Notes under the pieces: generated by a model
Databases searched by the model: none
What the model was told of the DNA's origin: nothing
What the model saw: only the letters and a program-made list of their open reading frames with translations
Virus record (IMG/VR): IMGVR_UViG_3300047509_000127
Location: 1-41,896 of that record
DNA from: a virus
Length of the DNA: 41,896 nucleotides
Reading direction: 5' to 3' (one strand)
Translations under genes and position numbers: made by a program
Shown here: positions 1 through 41,896 of the stretch, in pieces
Position numbering within the stretch: position 1 is the stretch's first letter
How the letters are laid out: the number at the start of each line of letters is the position of its first letter

Positions 1-153
1 TACTCCAACTCCAACTCCCACTCCTACTCCAACTCCTACTCCTACTCCTACTCCAATTCCTACTCCCACTCCCACTCCAACTCCCACTCCCACTCCTACT
101 CCAACTCCTACTCCTACTCCAACTCCAACTCCCACTCCTACTCCTACTCCCAC
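1..153. repeat. Terminal overlap, left copy (hexanucleotide repeat)
   Basis: Tandem ACTCCN hexamers. Bases 1-120 match 41750-41869, and 127-153 match 41870-41896. The left copy carries one extra unit (AACTCC, 121-126). This is the signature of a circular or circularly permuted genome opened inside a repeat, with copy number differing by one unit. The repeat is the coding sequence of a minus-strand gene. Confidence 0.9.
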
Positions 154-3175: not shown

Positions 3176-3216
3176 CTAGTGGGTATTTAAAGGTGGTGAA
3201 CTCGAGGTCTTTATCC

Positions 3217-3233: not shown

Positions 3234-3336
3234 GGTTGGGCAAGAAATACCAGAGGTATTAGTTGGGCAAGAACTTAGAGTATGGTTGGGCAAATACCCG
3301 AAAAGGCAACCGAAAGTGGTTGCGTGGTTGGGCAAA
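3234..3336 (+). repeat. GGTTGGGCAA iterons (four copies)
   Basis: GGTTGGGCAAG at 3234-3244, GTTGGGCAAG at 3262-3271, GGTTGGGCAAA at 3284-3294 and 3326-3336. Four directly repeated decamers immediately before and inside the 5' end of the small terminase frame. That is where pac or cos binding sites for a small terminase are often found, or operator sites for a regulator. Confidence 0.75.
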
Positions 3337-3908
3337 CTAAGATATTGTGCCAATATATGGTTGATTTAGTGACTCGTTCTCCTAATTCCACAAAAAAAGG
3401 CATTAATTGGAAAAACGTTGAAAAGATGTATCTCGTTGATGGTTTACCATACCGTGAAGTTGCAAGACTCGCTGGTGTTAGTAGGCAAATGATCGAGAAA
3501 AAGGGTAAGGAGCTTAAATGGGCAGAGAAGAGAAAACAGGTAGATAAGGTAGCTTCCCAGTCGTTTGATGAGGCGGTGTTAATTAAAAGAGAAGAGTTGA
3601 AGAAGGAAGTTGTTTTAGACGCTATTGATAGGATAGCGAGGGTTAAGACTGAACAACTAGATCAGTCAGTAAAGCTGATTGAGATTGGTATGGCGAGGTT
3701 AGGTGGTGGTAAACCAATTAGTGATGCTACGGCTATTTCAGCTATTAGGTTAGGTCAAGAGACTATTAGGGAGCTGGAAGGTATGAAGAAGAATATTGAG
3801 AATCAAACGAATATACAGATTAATGTTAGTCCTGAGGAAGCAAAGGAAAGGTTAAGGTTGATTGCGAAGGAATATGGGCAGATAAATGATGGAGTAAATG
3901 CGGTATGA
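3282..3908 (+). CDS. terS: Terminase small subunit (putative)
   Basis: 208 residues from ATG 3282, or 183 from ATG 3357. The second is more likely the real start, because the first 25 codons are made from the GGTTGGGCAA iterons. Neither start has a Shine-Dalgarno. After residue 40 comes a helix-turn-helix (LPYREVARLAGVSRQMIEKK), then a long charged helical region (KKEVVLDAIDRIARVKTEQL) and a C-terminal EAKERLRLIAKEYG. This is the arrangement of phage small terminases, which bind the packaging site and recruit the large subunit. The gene is distinctly AT-richer than its neighbours. It could alternatively be another HTH packaging or regulatory protein. Confidence 0.7.
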   Translation: MVGQIPEKATESGCVVGQTKILCQYMVDLVTRSPNSTKKGINWKNVEKMYLVDGLPYREVARLAGVSRQMIEKKGKELKWAEKRKQVDKVASQSFDEAVLIKREELKKEVVLDAIDRIARVKTEQLDQSVKLIEIGMARLGGGKPISDATAISAIRLGQETIRELEGMKKNIENQTNIQINVSPEEAKERLRLIAKEYGQINDGVNAV

Positions 3909-4322
3909 TAGAAGGTAGAGTAAGGGATACGATTATAGTACCGCCGAGTGCGCCAGCGGACTCAGAACGTTCTAGATTAGTTACTTTAATTAATTACCTA
4001 TTATTACTAACTCTACGTTTATACAGGATTTCAACATTTGTAACTGTGTATTCCGGGATTTTACCTAGCCTAACCACTGCATATAGGCCTGTAGGCGTAC
4101 CAACACATACCCACCTGAGTAGACAACTTCGTACATTAACCAATATACGAAGTTACGGGAGCATAAAGCATTCCTTAAGCATTCTTTCACGGGGTATTGT
4201 GCCCAGGGGGCGGGGATGGACATACGATATATCCAGATCATATATGTATCTGTTCCACCTAATCCATATATATTTTCATATAAAATTAAATAGTAATAAT
4301 ACTATAGGACTATATACCTAGT
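3909..4322. other. AT-rich non-coding interval with recombination-site-like sequence
   Basis: A 138-codon plus-strand frame exists, but its amino-acid composition looks random, so I treat the interval as non-coding. It holds the loxP-like site (4123-4156), a direct repeat of AAGCATTC, palindromic GGCCT/AGGC, and a very AT-rich tail before 4323. It could be a recombination or replication locus. Confidence 0.5.
4123..4156. other. loxP-like recombination site
   Basis: Left arm ACAACTTCGTACA (4123-4135), 8-bp spacer TTAACCAA (4136-4143), right arm TATACGAAGTTAC (4144-4156). Against P1 loxP arms this is 11/13 and 12/13, with the exact 13-8-13 geometry and a perfect 9-bp inverted core AACTTCGTA/TACGAAGTT in place. 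No tyrosine recombinase gene is recognisable in the window. Confidence 0.65.
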
Positions 4323-4547
4323 ATGAAGAATATCTCACACACTAAGGTAGACTCTAGCCACGTATCCTCGGTTGGCTATGACCAGGAAGATCAAGTGTTA
4401 GAAGTGAAGTTCAAGAATGGTACCACCTACCGCTACCTAGATGTATCTCCTAATATCCATCAAGACATACTTAAAGCTGATTCCGTAGGTAAGTTCCTTC
4501 ACGGGAACCTTAGAGATCACGCCTACCACCGATTGGAGGAAGGATGA
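4323..4547 (+). CDS. KTSC domain protein
   Basis: 74 residues matching the KTSC domain: KVDSSHVSSVGYDQEDQVLE, then FKNGTTYRYLDV and a C-terminal LKADSVGKFLHGNLRD. KTSC proteins are small, widespread in phages and bacteria, and of unknown mechanism, sometimes fused to or near nucleic-acid enzymes. It opens the four-gene cluster that separates the two terminase genes; its TGA overlaps the next ATG (ATGA). No Shine-Dalgarno is visible. Confidence 0.8.
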   Translation: MKNISHTKVDSSHVSSVGYDQEDQVLEVKFKNGTTYRYLDVSPNIHQDILKADSVGKFLHGNLRDHAYHRLEEG

Positions 4548-5128
4548 CCTTAGAGGACTTTAAAGGAAGATTAGCTAACCGCTACGTCACCTTCGAGCTG
4601 AGCGTTCAGTGGTTTAAGGAGCACCGTGGCTGCATCATTGTTGAGACTGGCTGTGTTAGGTTAGAAGATGATTGGGGAGGGGCTGGGATGTCCACTATCG
4701 TCTTTGACCATGTCATTCAAAAGGAGAAGTTACGACTAGCCGGTACCACCCATCTCGAACCCAAGTTCTATTCTGTGGATCTTGATGAGAAGAACGTTTC
4801 GTTAGCTAGGAATCTCACCAAGGAAGCTGAGATATCCGTTGGGGACTCCGTAGCGTTCCTTGAGGACTTCCACGGATCGATTGACCTGCTCTACCTAGAT
4901 TCCTATGACTGTGACCCTGAGGGGGATTCTACCCCCGCACAAGAACACCAATTAGCTGAGGTTAGAGCATCTCTGCCTAAGATGGCCCTGCATTCCGCTA
5001 TCCTTCTAGATGATCGGGGAGATCCTCCATTTCCTGGTGGTGGAAAGACCAGGCTTAGTGAAGAATATCTACGCGATAAGGGTTGGGTTAGTTTATGGAC
5101 TGGGTATCAATCCCTGTGGGTTAGATGA
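4544..5128 (+). CDS. Class I SAM-dependent methyltransferase
   Basis: 194 residues. Motif I is IIVETGCVR (about residues 31-39), followed by FYSVDLDEKN (acidic residue at the end of strand 2), ISVGDSVAFLEDF and LLYLDSYD, in the order expected of a Rossmann-fold methyltransferase of the Methyltransf_24 type. The neighbours are glycosyltransferase-like, so the substrate is plausibly a glycan or sugar donor rather than DNA; that is inference. It overlaps the genes on both sides by four bases. Confidence 0.8.
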   Translation: MTLEDFKGRLANRYVTFELSVQWFKEHRGCIIVETGCVRLEDDWGGAGMSTIVFDHVIQKEKLRLAGTTHLEPKFYSVDLDEKNVSLARNLTKEAEISVGDSVAFLEDFHGSIDLLYLDSYDCDPEGDSTPAQEHQLAEVRASLPKMALHSAILLDDRGDPPFPGGGKTRLSEEYLRDKGWVSLWTGYQSLWVR

Positions 5129-6126: not shown

Positions 6127-7169
6127 AAATCTTTACTGACCTACATCACGGCAGTCTTTTCGAGTCACTAAGAATCTTGTTTGAAGATCGTTTAGGCCAT
6201 GAACTCTATCGTCCGATTGGTAAGGAGTGGCAGGATGCTGGATTTTGGGAGATAGCTCGTCCCTATAACAACGCTGCCGACACCACCGATCAGTATCTAG
6301 GCTTCCATACCGGTGTTTGGAATGCTGAAAAAGCCCTAAATGGATCAAGAGAAGAACTCGGTGACGGCATATACAGCGTTTTTGATACCTTTCACGGTGT
6401 TAAACAGAAAGCCATCACCTTTGAGGAGTTCAAAAAGCACAACTTTGACCTAATCCTCGCTACCTATCCCACCCACGGGACCGTCTATAAGAACTTAAGG
6501 GACCTTTACCAGCCGCAAGCTAAGCTCGCAGTCCAAATTGGCAATGGTGACCGCGATCCAAGCGAGGATCTAGCCGTTACGGACAATATTTTATATTCCG
6601 TGACCGACCCAAAACCCAAATCCGCATCAAACTACGTCATTTACCACCAAGAATTCAACCTTAAACCATTTCTAGCCGCCCGTAGGGTCACTCTTAAGAA
6701 AAAGATCGTCAATCTTATGCCACTACTAGTCGGAGAATCCTTAGAGTATTGGAACATGTTACGTGACGCCTTTCCAGAATTTGAGTATGAGTCTTGGGGA
6801 CCAGGAAATGAGTTGGGTAGTCTCCACAGTTTGAGAGAAATCGCCGATAAGATGGCTGAGGCAATGTTTGTCTTTCACGTGAAGTTCTTTGATGGATACG
6901 GGCACCTAATTCATAACGCCTACGCTGCCGGTAGACCTGTCCTAACTGTTGGTAGAGCCTACCAAGGAAGAATGGGCGGTAAACTATTTAGCCCTCGTAT
7001 CACTGGTATAGACCTAGACGAATCGGAGTGGAAGGAAGAACTCGAATTCTGGTCCCAACCTATCAACAACGAAACCTTAAGACGAAGTGCGGCGGCAAGG
7101 TTTGATACGGTGGTAGATTTCGCTAAGGAAGCGGAGGAAGTCCGATCATGGATACAGAACTTACGGTAG
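6123..7169 (+). CDS. Glycosyltransferase-like protein, second of three
   Basis: 348 residues from ATG 6123 (ATGA overlap with the preceding gene); an earlier in-frame ATG at 6099 is buried in the previous gene. It begins MKIFTDLHHGSLFESLRILF, a pattern I associate with phage GT-B-like proteins, and carries GYGHLIHNAYAAGRPVLTVG (about residues 258-277), equivalent to the nucleotide-sugar-binding end of GT-B folds. Function is inferred from fold-like motifs and context; the acceptor is unknown. Confidence 0.65.
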   Translation: MKIFTDLHHGSLFESLRILFEDRLGHELYRPIGKEWQDAGFWEIARPYNNAADTTDQYLGFHTGVWNAEKALNGSREELGDGIYSVFDTFHGVKQKAITFEEFKKHNFDLILATYPTHGTVYKNLRDLYQPQAKLAVQIGNGDRDPSEDLAVTDNILYSVTDPKPKSASNYVIYHQEFNLKPFLAARRVTLKKKIVNLMPLLVGESLEYWNMLRDAFPEFEYESWGPGNELGSLHSLREIADKMAEAMFVFHVKFFDGYGHLIHNAYAAGRPVLTVGRAYQGRMGGKLFSPRITGIDLDESEWKEELEFWSQPINNETLRRSAAARFDTVVDFAKEAEEVRSWIQNLR

Positions 7170-8548
7170 ATCCTAAGCAGCTAGTCCAAGACGAGTCCGC
7201 TTTGGGACTTCAGTCACTTTTCTTTTTTGATAAATACATTCTTGGATACAAAGAAATGGTTGAGCCACTGCACCGTGACATGACAACTTTCGTATCTACC
7301 AATAAACATCGTAATAAGCTATGTCTTCTTCCCCGTGGCAGCTTTAAGTCCTCCTGTATCACTGTTGGGATGTCTGTTCAAGAAGTCACTAGTGATCCCA
7401 ATATTCGTATCCTAATAGCCTCTGAGACCTACGCTAACGCCCAGAAGTTCTTAAGAGAGATAAAGGGGCACTTCGTAGGTAATACTAACTTTAAGGACCA
7501 CTACGGGGACTTTATGGCCGAGGTGGGATGGACTGAGACTGAGATCACTGTCTCTAGACGTACCAAGAACTTTAAAGAACCGACTATCACAACCGCTGGT
7601 TTAGACGTGACCAAAGTTGGTATGCACTACGACCGGATCATCATTGATGATCCTGTTTCTCAGAGTAATGTCACGAACAATGACCAGATCGAAAAGACTT
7701 TAGAGTGGTGGAAGCTCCTTTTCTCACTTCTAGAACCAACTGGTAGGATGATTGTTATTGGTACGAGGTGGCACTATGATGATTTGTACGGGTATATCAT
7801 CGAGAATGAACAGGACCATTTCGATGTTTTGCACCGCCAGGCGATTCAAGCTGATGGAACTCTGCTCTTTCCGGAACGTTTGACACACGAGTTCCTAGAA
7901 ACACAACGTAAGCGCCAAGGGTCGTATATTTTCTCTTCGCAGTATCAAAATACCCCAATCTTAGACGAAGACGCGGTACTAAAAGGCGTCCAGAAATACT
8001 TTCCTGAGAACTTAATGGGCCGTAAGTTATATAAGTTTATGATGATCGACCCCGCTGTTTCAGAGAAGGAAAGTGCCGACTACACCGCGTTTGTGGTAGT
8101 TGGGGTGGACGAAGAAAAGAACTGGTGGGTGTTGGATGCTATCCATAAACGTTGTCTACCAGGAGAGTTAATCGACACTGCCTTTAGTCTATATACACTA
8201 CACCGACCTCTTATCGTTGGAGTCGAGGTCCAAGCCTTCCAGAAAGTTCTGGTATATATCTTTAATCAAGAGATGGTTAAGAGACAGATCCACCTACCAA
8301 TTCGTGAGGTTAAGGCCGACACCGATAAGTTTAGGAGGGTCCTTAATCTGCAACCACGAGTCGAGGAAGGGAAGCTCTTTATTCGTAATGACCATGCCGA
8401 CCTTGAACAAGAAATGCGTAGGTTTCCTCGTGGTAAACACGATGACCTTATTGACGCCTTAGCATCTCTTGATCAATTAGTTTATTACCCCCAACCGGAA
8501 CGCCGCACTCCCGTCTATGTTCCGGAAAATGATGTGACGGGTTATTAG
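7148..8548 (+). CDS. terL: Terminase large subunit
   Basis: 466 residues. The ATPase domain shows Walker A-like LLPRGSFKSSC (about residues 58-68), Walker B YDRIIIDDP (about 159-167) and the coupling motif VIGTRWHYDDLYG. The RNase H-like nuclease domain follows with MMIDPAVSEKESADYTAF (first Asp), GVEVQAF and PRGKHDDLIDAL near the C-terminus. This is the motor that cuts and packages phage DNA into the prohead. Length is usual. Start ATG 7148 overlaps the upstream gene by 22 bases and has GGAGG in the preceding codons. Confidence 0.97.
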   Translation: MDTELTVDPKQLVQDESALGLQSLFFFDKYILGYKEMVEPLHRDMTTFVSTNKHRNKLCLLPRGSFKSSCITVGMSVQEVTSDPNIRILIASETYANAQKFLREIKGHFVGNTNFKDHYGDFMAEVGWTETEITVSRRTKNFKEPTITTAGLDVTKVGMHYDRIIIDDPVSQSNVTNNDQIEKTLEWWKLLFSLLEPTGRMIVIGTRWHYDDLYGYIIENEQDHFDVLHRQAIQADGTLLFPERLTHEFLETQRKRQGSYIFSSQYQNTPILDEDAVLKGVQKYFPENLMGRKLYKFMMIDPAVSEKESADYTAFVVVGVDEEKNWWVLDAIHKRCLPGELIDTAFSLYTLHRPLIVGVEVQAFQKVLVYIFNQEMVKRQIHLPIREVKADTDKFRRVLNLQPRVEEGKLFIRNDHADLEQEMRRFPRGKHDDLIDALASLDQLVYYPQPERRTPVYVPENDVTGY

Positions 8549-39453: not shown

Positions 39454-39463
39454 ACCCAAACAC

Positions 39464-39484
39464 TATATCACGTTACATGGTTAT
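39464..39484 (-). promoter_or_regulatory. Early promoter/operator site 4
   Basis: Leftward: TTGAAG, 15-base spacer ATAACCATGTAACGT, GATATA (39469-39464), then ATG at 39453. Same layout as site 3. Confidence 0.6.
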
Positions 39485-39519
39485 CTTCAAGGGATATTAA
39501 AAACCACCCTACGGCACGA

Positions 39520-39538
39520 CCAGAGACGTTTTCTCTGG
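39520..39538. other. Hairpin in non-coding interval
   Basis: CCAGAGA / TCTCTGG with a five-base loop, in the 39.46-40.2 kb interval that lacks protein genes. Confidence 0.4.
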
Positions 39539-39609
39539 GCCGGTTGGAGTAGACGTCCGAACTGTTAGCGAGCATCTTCAGAATATCTTTACGTCCAAAG
39601 AGCTGGAGG

Positions 39610-39642
39610 AAAATACAGTTATCCGGAAAATCCGGATAACTG
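39610..39642 (-). terminator. Perfect 12-bp hairpin, probable terminator of the RNA array transcript
   Basis: CAGTTATCCGGA (39616-39627), loop AAA, TCCGGATAACTG (39631-39642). Read leftward it is followed by TATTTT, so it would stop transcripts coming through the tRNA-like elements. Confidence 0.65.
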
Positions 39643-39730
39643 CCGAGAACAAAGCTACGAATAGAGAGCCAACGAGAAGGGAACTTGAAATGTCTGGCGC
39701 AATGATTGGGTGGGATCGGGAGGGTTAGTA

Positions 39731-39765
39731 TTAACTTCGTAAATTGTTGGAATATACGGGGTTCC
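39731..39765. other. Weaker loxP-like sequence
   Basis: TTAACTTCGTAAA (39731-39743, 11/13 to a loxP arm), 9-base spacer, TATACGGGGTTCC (39753-39765, 9/13). It shares the AACTTCGTA core and the AATATACG right border with the site at 4123. Confidence 0.35.
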
Positions 39766-39813
39766 CTCTAGTTGAGAAGAACCCCCACGTAGGGTTATCT
39801 ACCTCAACCAGAG
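39766..39813. ncRNA. Nested stem-loop
   Basis: CTCT/AGAG, GTTGAG/CTCAAC and ACCC/GGGT nest in order with small internal loops between 39766 and 39813 (14 base pairs). Next to the tRNA-like array; likely part of the same structured transcript. Confidence 0.45.
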
Positions 39814-39841
39814 GCTTGTCTTTCTCCTTGATTAATCTCTC

Positions 39842-39915
39842 GGCGTAGGGCTTTCGGTTAGATTAAAAGACCTGACCATCCAGTTTAGCTGATGGAAGTG
39901 TTTACCCACCTCTTC
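39842..39915 (-). ncRNA. tRNA-Lys-like element (degenerate)
   Basis: 74 bases between the linker and the tRNA-Val-like element. Contains TCTTTTAATC as a TTT-anticodon-like loop in a stem GGTCAG/CTAACC with one mismatch, but the loop closes at six bases and the CCCTAC half of a T-stem has no partner. Not a functional tRNA by eye. Confidence 0.25.
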
Positions 39916-39916
39916 T

Positions 39917-39985
39917 CGCACTATTGGGGAATCGAACCCCGTCTCATACAAGGTAAATGTATGACCGTTACCTCACCCTACGTCC
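39917..39985 (-). tRNA. tRNA-Val(TAC)-like element (non-canonical)
   Basis: Leftward: a perfect anticodon-type hairpin (TCATACA/TGTATGA around TTTACCT, anticodon TAC) and a T-arm GGGG-TTCGATT-CCCC. The D-region GGTAACGGTC is short and no acceptor stem pairs across the ends; position 37 would be C, which is atypical. Either a degenerate tRNA or a tRNA mimic. Confidence 0.4.
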
Positions 39986-40002
39986 AAAGGTCAATCTCTC
40001 AC

Positions 40003-40085
40003 GCGTGGCTACCGAACTCTGCAAGCTTATCTCCGTCTCACGCAGAGCCTTAGATGGAGAACTGTACGGTTTTTTATAGCCACGC
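40003..40085 (-). ncRNA. Structured RNA closed by a 9-bp stem (tRNA-like, possible pseudoknot)
   Basis: GCGTGGCTA (40003-40011) pairs with TAGCCACGC (40077-40085). Inside, CTCTGC (40017-40022) can pair with GCAGAG (40042-40047) while TCTCC (40030-40034) pairs with GGAGA (40056-40060): interleaved, i.e. an H-type pseudoknot. A T-loop-like GTTCGGT is present but canonical tRNA arms are not. Confidence 0.45.
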
Positions 40086-40106
40086 ATCAAAGATCAATCT
40101 CTCTAA

Positions 40107-40180
40107 GGGTGGGAGCAGGGCTTTGCACCGCTGCAAAATTCAGGCATGACCCTAGTGTCTATACTTTCACCATCCCACCC
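40107..40180 (-). tRNA. tRNA-Leu-like element (non-canonical)
   Basis: 74 bases closed by a 7-bp acceptor-like stem GGGTGGG/CCCACCC. ATGGTGAAA...AGACAC resembles the D-arm of tRNA-Leu, but the D-loop lacks GG. The T-arm (GCAG-C-GG / CC-CTGC around TGCAAAG) has a bulge, the anticodon arm closes on a 5-6 base loop containing CAT, and the long variable arm is missing. Probably degenerate or a mimic. Confidence 0.4.
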
Positions 40181-40217
40181 TCAGAATTATCAATCAATGT
40201 GCTTGCTTGTCTTTTAC

Positions 40218-41720: not shown

Positions 41721-41896
41721 TTAATAACTCCTACTCCAACTCCTACTCCTACTCCAACTCCAACTCCCACTCCTACTCCAACTCCTACTCCTACTCCTAC
41801 TCCAATTCCTACTCCCACTCCCACTCCAACTCCCACTCCCACTCCTACTCCAACTCCTACTCCTACTCCAACTCCCACTCCTACTCCTACTCCCAC
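41721..41896 (-). CDS. RS/WS/GS dipeptide-repeat protein, C-terminal part
   Basis: Continuation of the gene that starts at 205 on the minus strand and runs off base 1. In this copy the X-S frame ends with ...SRSWSRSY and TAA at 41723-41721. The 41750-41896 part duplicates bases 1-153 minus one hexamer, i.e. two residues fewer. The longer-looking GVGV frame that runs through this end is rejected because it has no start in the circular reading. Confidence 0.7.
41750..41896. repeat. Terminal overlap, right copy
   Basis: Identical to 1-153 apart from one missing 6-base unit. See the left copy for the circularity argument. Confidence 0.9.

Follow-up and report, generated by a model that had tools for sequence, protein, structure and literature searches.

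A dif-type palindrome beside the small terminase gene of a tailed phage, predicted to be a target of host Xer recombinase

The locus and the genome carrying it

The window, by which we mean the whole 41,896-nt stretch of viral DNA that was analyzed, contains a 414-bp gap between a probable small terminase gene (terS) and a gene for a KTSC-domain protein (Table 1). The original prediction had placed a loxP-like site in a non-coding interval just past the small terminase gene, and both parts of that description agree with our analysis. Codon scores in the gap were between -0.17 and -0.26 bits per codon in all frames, whereas nearly all genes of the window scored +0.05 to +0.29. An ORF at 3905-4321, which spans the gap and has an ATGA overlap with terS, was ruled out as a gene by its codon usage. 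The assignment of the gene directly upstream as a small terminase, made from a profile match, is weak but plausible. The site lies 214 bp after terS, and terL is found 3 kb further on with four extra genes between.

Table 1. Coordinates of features in the 41,896-nt window
Feature	Position	Strand	Evidence
Left end, (ACTCCN)n repeat shared in an overlap with the right end	1-147		Identity to 41750-41896 of 144/147, exact over the first 126 bases
Small terminase subunit terS (probable)	3282-3908	+	phrog_1206, E=1.6e-6
414-bp non-coding gap holding the site	3909-4322		No frame like coding genes; no terminator-like hairpin (hairpin with T-run); no Rfam match
loxP-like 34-bp site, 13-8-13 parse	4123-4156		loxP arms matched with 3 mismatches; no such match in shuffles
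dif-type 28-bp core, proposed Xer recombination site	4126-4153		10/11 dyad; 23/28 to Halanaerobium dif
Left recombinase-binding arm (proposed)	4126-4136	+	9/11 to xer-linked arm ACTTCGTATAA
Central hexamer TAACCA, T....A pattern as in xer-linked and Halanaerobium sites	4137-4142	+	5/6 to G744 dif centre; 5/6 to L324-type centre TATCCA
Right recombinase-binding arm (proposed)	4143-4153	-	10/11 to xer-linked arm ACTTCGTATAA
KTSC-domain protein, first gene past the site	4323-4547	+	PF13619, E=1.9e-20
Large terminase subunit terL	7148-8548	+	phrog_38, E=7e-92
Right end, other half of the terminal overlap	41750-41896		Matches 1-147

Since the two ends of the window overlap in the (ACTCCN)n repeat, the genome is probably complete and would close as a circle of approximately 41.75 kb, although IMG/VR classes the record as linear. 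Portal, capsid and TerL genes were recognizable in it. The phage had been described as being without a recognizable recombinase, and this stands: no match to PF00589 (tyrosine recombinases) or PF00239 (serine recombinases) was found in the window, and Cre and Xer queries (Cre by tblastn) returned noise only. Replication genes were not recognized in the window either. The early half (34.9-41.9 kb plus 0.2-3.1 kb, minus strand) consists of small ORFs only, with no polymerase, helicase, primase or repressor recognized among them; the phage may be wholly dependent on host replication. Nothing in the genome was recognized as a repressor or as another indication of lysogeny, and no integration joint was seen.

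The signals that bear on the host are in conflict, as judged from gene similarity. The structural genes are nearest to those of freshwater cyanophages (25-36% identity), whereas the YopX gene resembles its counterparts in Firmicutes phages. The top score for TerL was obtained with ANMV-1, and clear Shine-Dalgarno sequences precede most genes of the window. The dif site of cyanobacteria is unknown (PMC3025954). The closest relative by capsid protein (L197, 52% identity) is without the site, and no relative examined has a similar one. Searches for site-bearing relatives via terS, TerL, capsid, portal or methyltransferase, via 500-bp DNA among phages, among plasmids, and by the T....A pattern in viral contigs were all negative. 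Prophage relatives sought in 398 Bacillota genomes gave capsid matches of 23-26% only, none of them close.

Sequence and symmetry of the site

The sequence at 4123-4156 is ACAACTTCGTACA-TTAACCAA-TATACGAAGTTAC. The arms had been reported as 11/13 and 12/13 identical to those of P1 loxP around a perfect inverted core. Recounting gave the same values (23 of the 26 arm bases identical, three mismatches), and the core is a perfect 9-bp inverted repeat, AACTTCGTA/TACGAAGTT. When the window was scanned with the loxP arms allowing up to three mismatches, this was the sole match, and 100 dinucleotide shuffles of the window produced none. The arm counts of the 13-8-13 geometry thus hold, but an 11-6-11 arrangement at 4126-4153, ACTTCGTACAT-TAACCA-ATATACGAAGT, is the better parse: its arms form a 10/11 palindrome, the only one of that geometry and quality in the window. 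The site can also be read as 13-bp arms with one mismatch and a 4-nt loop. Both readings indicate a dyad that reaches deeper into the site than is apparent from the lox parse.

In Markov-simulated sequence, 11-6-11 palindromes of at least 10/11 with a T....A centre occurred at 0.03 per window (two in 60 simulated windows). Combining this with the eight outer arm bases gives, by simple arithmetic (0.03 x 4^-8), a chance of about 5e-7, which is a per-window figure, the number of windows screened being presumably large.

A second lox-like candidate, at 39733, was rejected as a chance occurrence: it has a AACTTCGTA half-site, a poor right arm and 9-bp spacing, and the arm belongs to another hairpin. 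This lone half-site lies in a second non-coding stretch (39460-40200), in which there is also a strong hairpin, ACAGTTATCCGGA-AAA-TCCGGATAACTGC, at 39615-39643.

loxP-like cores in viral and bacterial collections

The exact core AACTTCGTA-N12-TACGAAGTT was found in 75 stretches among 2.9 million viral contigs of IMG/VR. Every viral copy other than that of the window is loxP itself or one of its rare spacer variants, keeping the P1-type 8-bp spacer ATGTATGC or a close variant; that spacer is absent from the window site, which has TTAACCAA. In bacterial genomes most core copies among the matches listed are exact loxP, and natural copies form a minority. Many exact loxP copies are found in public isolates and MAGs, at unexpected positions and in many cases close to the end of a contig (L077-L196); Gemmata sp. 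IIL30, Paracaedibacter symbiosus, Legionella tunisiensis and Rickettsia MAG DYDT01 are examples of the carriers. We take these to be, probably, leftover 454 paired-end linker. The copies from Pedobacter, Saprospiraceae and Psychromonas among the matches listed look like unrelated hairpins.

xer-linked palindromes in Clostridia and the dif site of Halanaerobium

Among the matches listed, two Ruminococcaceae MAGs and one other Bacillota MAG have the core approximately 50-105 bp from the start of a gene for an Xer-like tyrosine recombinase; natural copies adjacent to xer include L157, L195, L183, L282, L362 and L363. In L157 and L195 the 28 bp are identical, whereas the flanks have diverged. The best solved relatives of the Ruminococcaceae enzyme are XerA, a XerC-like protein and XerD, and the similarity to Cre of the clostridial Xer encoded beside a lox-like site is marginal only.

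The surroundings of relatives of these xer genes were then compared at 60 clostridial loci (L290-L349). A perfect 11-6-11 palindrome is present within 450 bp upstream of xer at 33 of the 60, with a T....A centre in 31 of them, against 3/60 in a far-upstream control of the same loci. The arm sequences vary, ATTATACAAAA being the commonest and ACTTCGCTAAA, ACTTCGTATAA and ACTTCGTAAAA also occurring. On this evidence the single Xer-like genes of Clostridia with their upstream palindrome apparently make up a xer-linked dif system; a literature search found no description of such a clostridial xer-linked 11-6-11 palindrome. Another palindrome, its arms of the TTATGT type (for example AATTTACATAA-TATATA-TTATGTAAATT), lies just 3′ of some clostridial xer genes (L332, L338, L342) and resembles a double XerD arm.

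In the Halanaerobium genomes checked, the sequence ACTTCGTAAAA-T....A-TTTTACGAAGT is present exactly once per genome. G581, a closed chromosome of 2,309,262 bp with dnaA at the start, has a one-base variant of the site at 1,144,107. The GC skew flips at this very position (+0.134 and -0.092 on the two sides within 4 kb, 8 kb being read). Location at the GC-skew shift point has been tied to dif, and single occurrence was a criterion of earlier dif predictions (PMC3025954). Its location at the skew switch opposite dnaA identifies the variant site of G581 as dif. One copy per genome and the skew-switch location in G581 together show that loxP-like palindromes are natural dif sites in at least the Halanaerobium group.

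Comparison of the phage site with known recombination sites

The phage 28-mer matches the dif of Halanaerobium genome G744 at 23/28 positions (5/6 in the centre), loxP at 22/28 (3/6 in the centre) and a Ruminococcaceae xer-linked site at 22/28, so that Halanaerobium dif exceeds loxP as a match by a single base. A full match was not found in the samples of Bacillota, Clostridia and Halanaerobiia. Halanaerobium dif and the clostridial xer-linked palindromes share with the phage site the 11-6-11 layout, a near-perfect dyad, ACTTCGTA outer arms, the T....A centre and a non-coding location. They differ from it in the inner arm bases, which are AAA or TAA in place of the phage CAT/TAT (a combination matched by no dif site seen), and in adjoining xer or the replication terminus rather than terS.

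P1 loxP, in turn, shares with the phage site 23/26 arm bases (arms ATAACTTCGTATA), a position near packaging genes and a directional spacer. However, the phage spacer is unrelated, there is no cre and the phage arms are equally close to dif. Of the P1-type lox reading originally offered, the part that survives is that the site looks like the target of a tyrosine recombinase; membership of the P1 loxP/Cre system is not supported, the nearest natural counterparts being bacterial dif sites of the single-Xer type. Beyond identity, the dif reading gains from the 11-6-11 dyad, from its TNNNNA centre and from the lack of a cre gene.

Single recombinases acting on strongly dyadic sites are also known from streptococci (XerS/difSL, in which difSL is linked to its gene) and Legionellales (XerL/dif). 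According to the literature their arms differ from the phage arms, and the present site is on a phage. Like the window phage, IMEX elements (CTXphi, TLCphi, Legionella LME-1 and gokushovirus and filamentous prophages) are mobile and carry a dif-like site; they rely on host Xer (PMC5357621, PMC9765430, PMC7062461), and PMC9765430 describes a case of integration that involves a single recombinase. Their characteristic feature, a dif mimic without a recombinase, is present in the window phage, the ends of which overlap. Unlike the window, however, which is the genome of a tailed phage and has the site next to terS, the IMEX phages are either filamentous phages or microviruses, and LME-1 does not belong to the tailed phages.

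Xer-type palindromes in other phages

The clostridial palindrome ATTRNACAAAAT-N4-ATTTTGTNYAAT was found in 30 viral contigs of IMG/VR (L403-L432), against a roughly estimated chance expectation of less than one. It is intergenic in 25 of the 30 (no ORF of at least 80 aa across it), and its central bases differ widely among them. In the stretches examined, a xer gene is present in one contig and absent from the other 29.

In four distinct tailed phages (L410=L411=L423; L421; L406=L422=L426; L428) the palindrome is located between terS and terL, 45-164 bp from the former and 281-861 bp from the latter; in L428 the place of terS is occupied by an ORF that has no annotation. L414 and L429 have the palindrome no more than about 1.1 kb from terL. 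This terS-side placement, common to the window and to four phages with different arms, is the strongest contextual support for the dif reading.

Five further contigs (L408, L412, L417, L418, L427) have the palindrome about 2 kb downstream of terL. In L405 an Xer-type palindrome at 3200 has as its neighbour an FtsK/SpoIIIE-like gene (3685-4734); FtsK/SpoIIIE-like motors are the class that activates Xer in bacteria.

Proposed function and alternative explanations

We consider it somewhat probable that 4126-4153 is a dif-type target, predicted to be active, of a single Xer tyrosine recombinase of the bacterial host. A dif-like site and no recognizable recombinase of its own suggest that the phage may borrow the host enzyme, and such a tailed phage would most likely represent a variation on the IMEX theme. 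As regards the source of the enzyme, for which the host, a helper or a small gene had been suggested, supply by the host appears the best option, and no small gene of this kind is recognizable in the window.

The phage site would mimic the site at which the host resolves chromosome dimers. Two host Xer protomers would bind the 11-bp arms, with strand exchange taking place across the 6-bp centre. Headful packaging usually starts at terS; if it does so here, a terminally redundant genome would carry a copy of the site, which adjoins terS, at each end. Recombination between the two copies would then circularize the DNA or resolve concatemers, whereas exchange with the dif of the chromosome would insert the phage there, as happens with IMEX elements (PMC5357621). 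We infer that the outcome would be one of these three: circularization, resolution or integration.

A broader proposal, which we put forward tentatively and at a little less than even chances, is that a host-type dif between terS and terL is found in several lineages of tailed phages. In place of an integrase or Cre, these phages would rely on the single Xer of the host, whether for closing or resolving the genome or for entry into the chromosome at dif. The window phage would be one of them, with loxP-like arms.

It is also conceivable that the palindrome is a coincidence or has another job, as an RNA hairpin, an operator or a TerS-binding pac element, and we regard this as unlikely. The expectation of about 5e-7 per window for arms plus centre speaks against coincidence, as do the missing terminator T-run and the agreement of the terS-side position with the Xer-type sites of independent phages. 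It has to be set against the fact that 11-6-11 palindromes of at least 10/11 are common, relatives having 13 of them in 870 kb, that the strand at the site can form a hairpin (-9.5 and -14.6 kcal/mol), that the Pedobacter, Saprospiraceae and Psychromonas copies of the core resemble unrelated hairpins, and that conservation of the site is not demonstrable among the relatives found.

In P1, Cre acts at loxP to circularize the genome or resolve concatemers, and Cre tolerates non-canonical arms. A true lox site, at which a Cre-like recombinase from a plasmid, helper phage or host would do the same for the present genome, would account for the 23/26 arm identity and for the location near packaging genes, which recalls P1. 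We nevertheless hold it to be improbable: the remaining viral copies of the core are all loxP or rare spacer variants and the phage spacer is unrelated to theirs, the near-complete genome has no Cre-like gene, and the clostridial Xer beside a lox-like site is barely Cre-like, which means that lox-like arms do not imply Cre. As to contamination of the assembly by a loxP-bearing 454 linker, or a decayed relic of one, linker-like loxP is abundant in public assemblies; yet the artefact copies are exact or near-exact loxP with the GCATACAT/ATGTATGC spacer, and the window differs in both spacer and outer bases. The window sequence itself thus largely refutes this explanation, to which we give hardly any weight.

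The phages so far known to exploit Xer are filamentous or tailless, plus microviruses (literature compared: PMC5357621, PMC9765430, PMC7062461). If the dif-type reading is true, a site of this type beside terS would provide a tailed phage with a route to circularization or lysogeny that needs no recombinase of its own and is missed by integrase-based searches, and such a phage site could be used to predict the dif of its host. The natural occurrence of loxP-like arms as chromosomal dif has implications for the origin of Cre/lox and for the reading of "pseudo-lox" sites. Should the broader proposal for several lineages hold, P1 loxP would share sequence space with natural dif sites.
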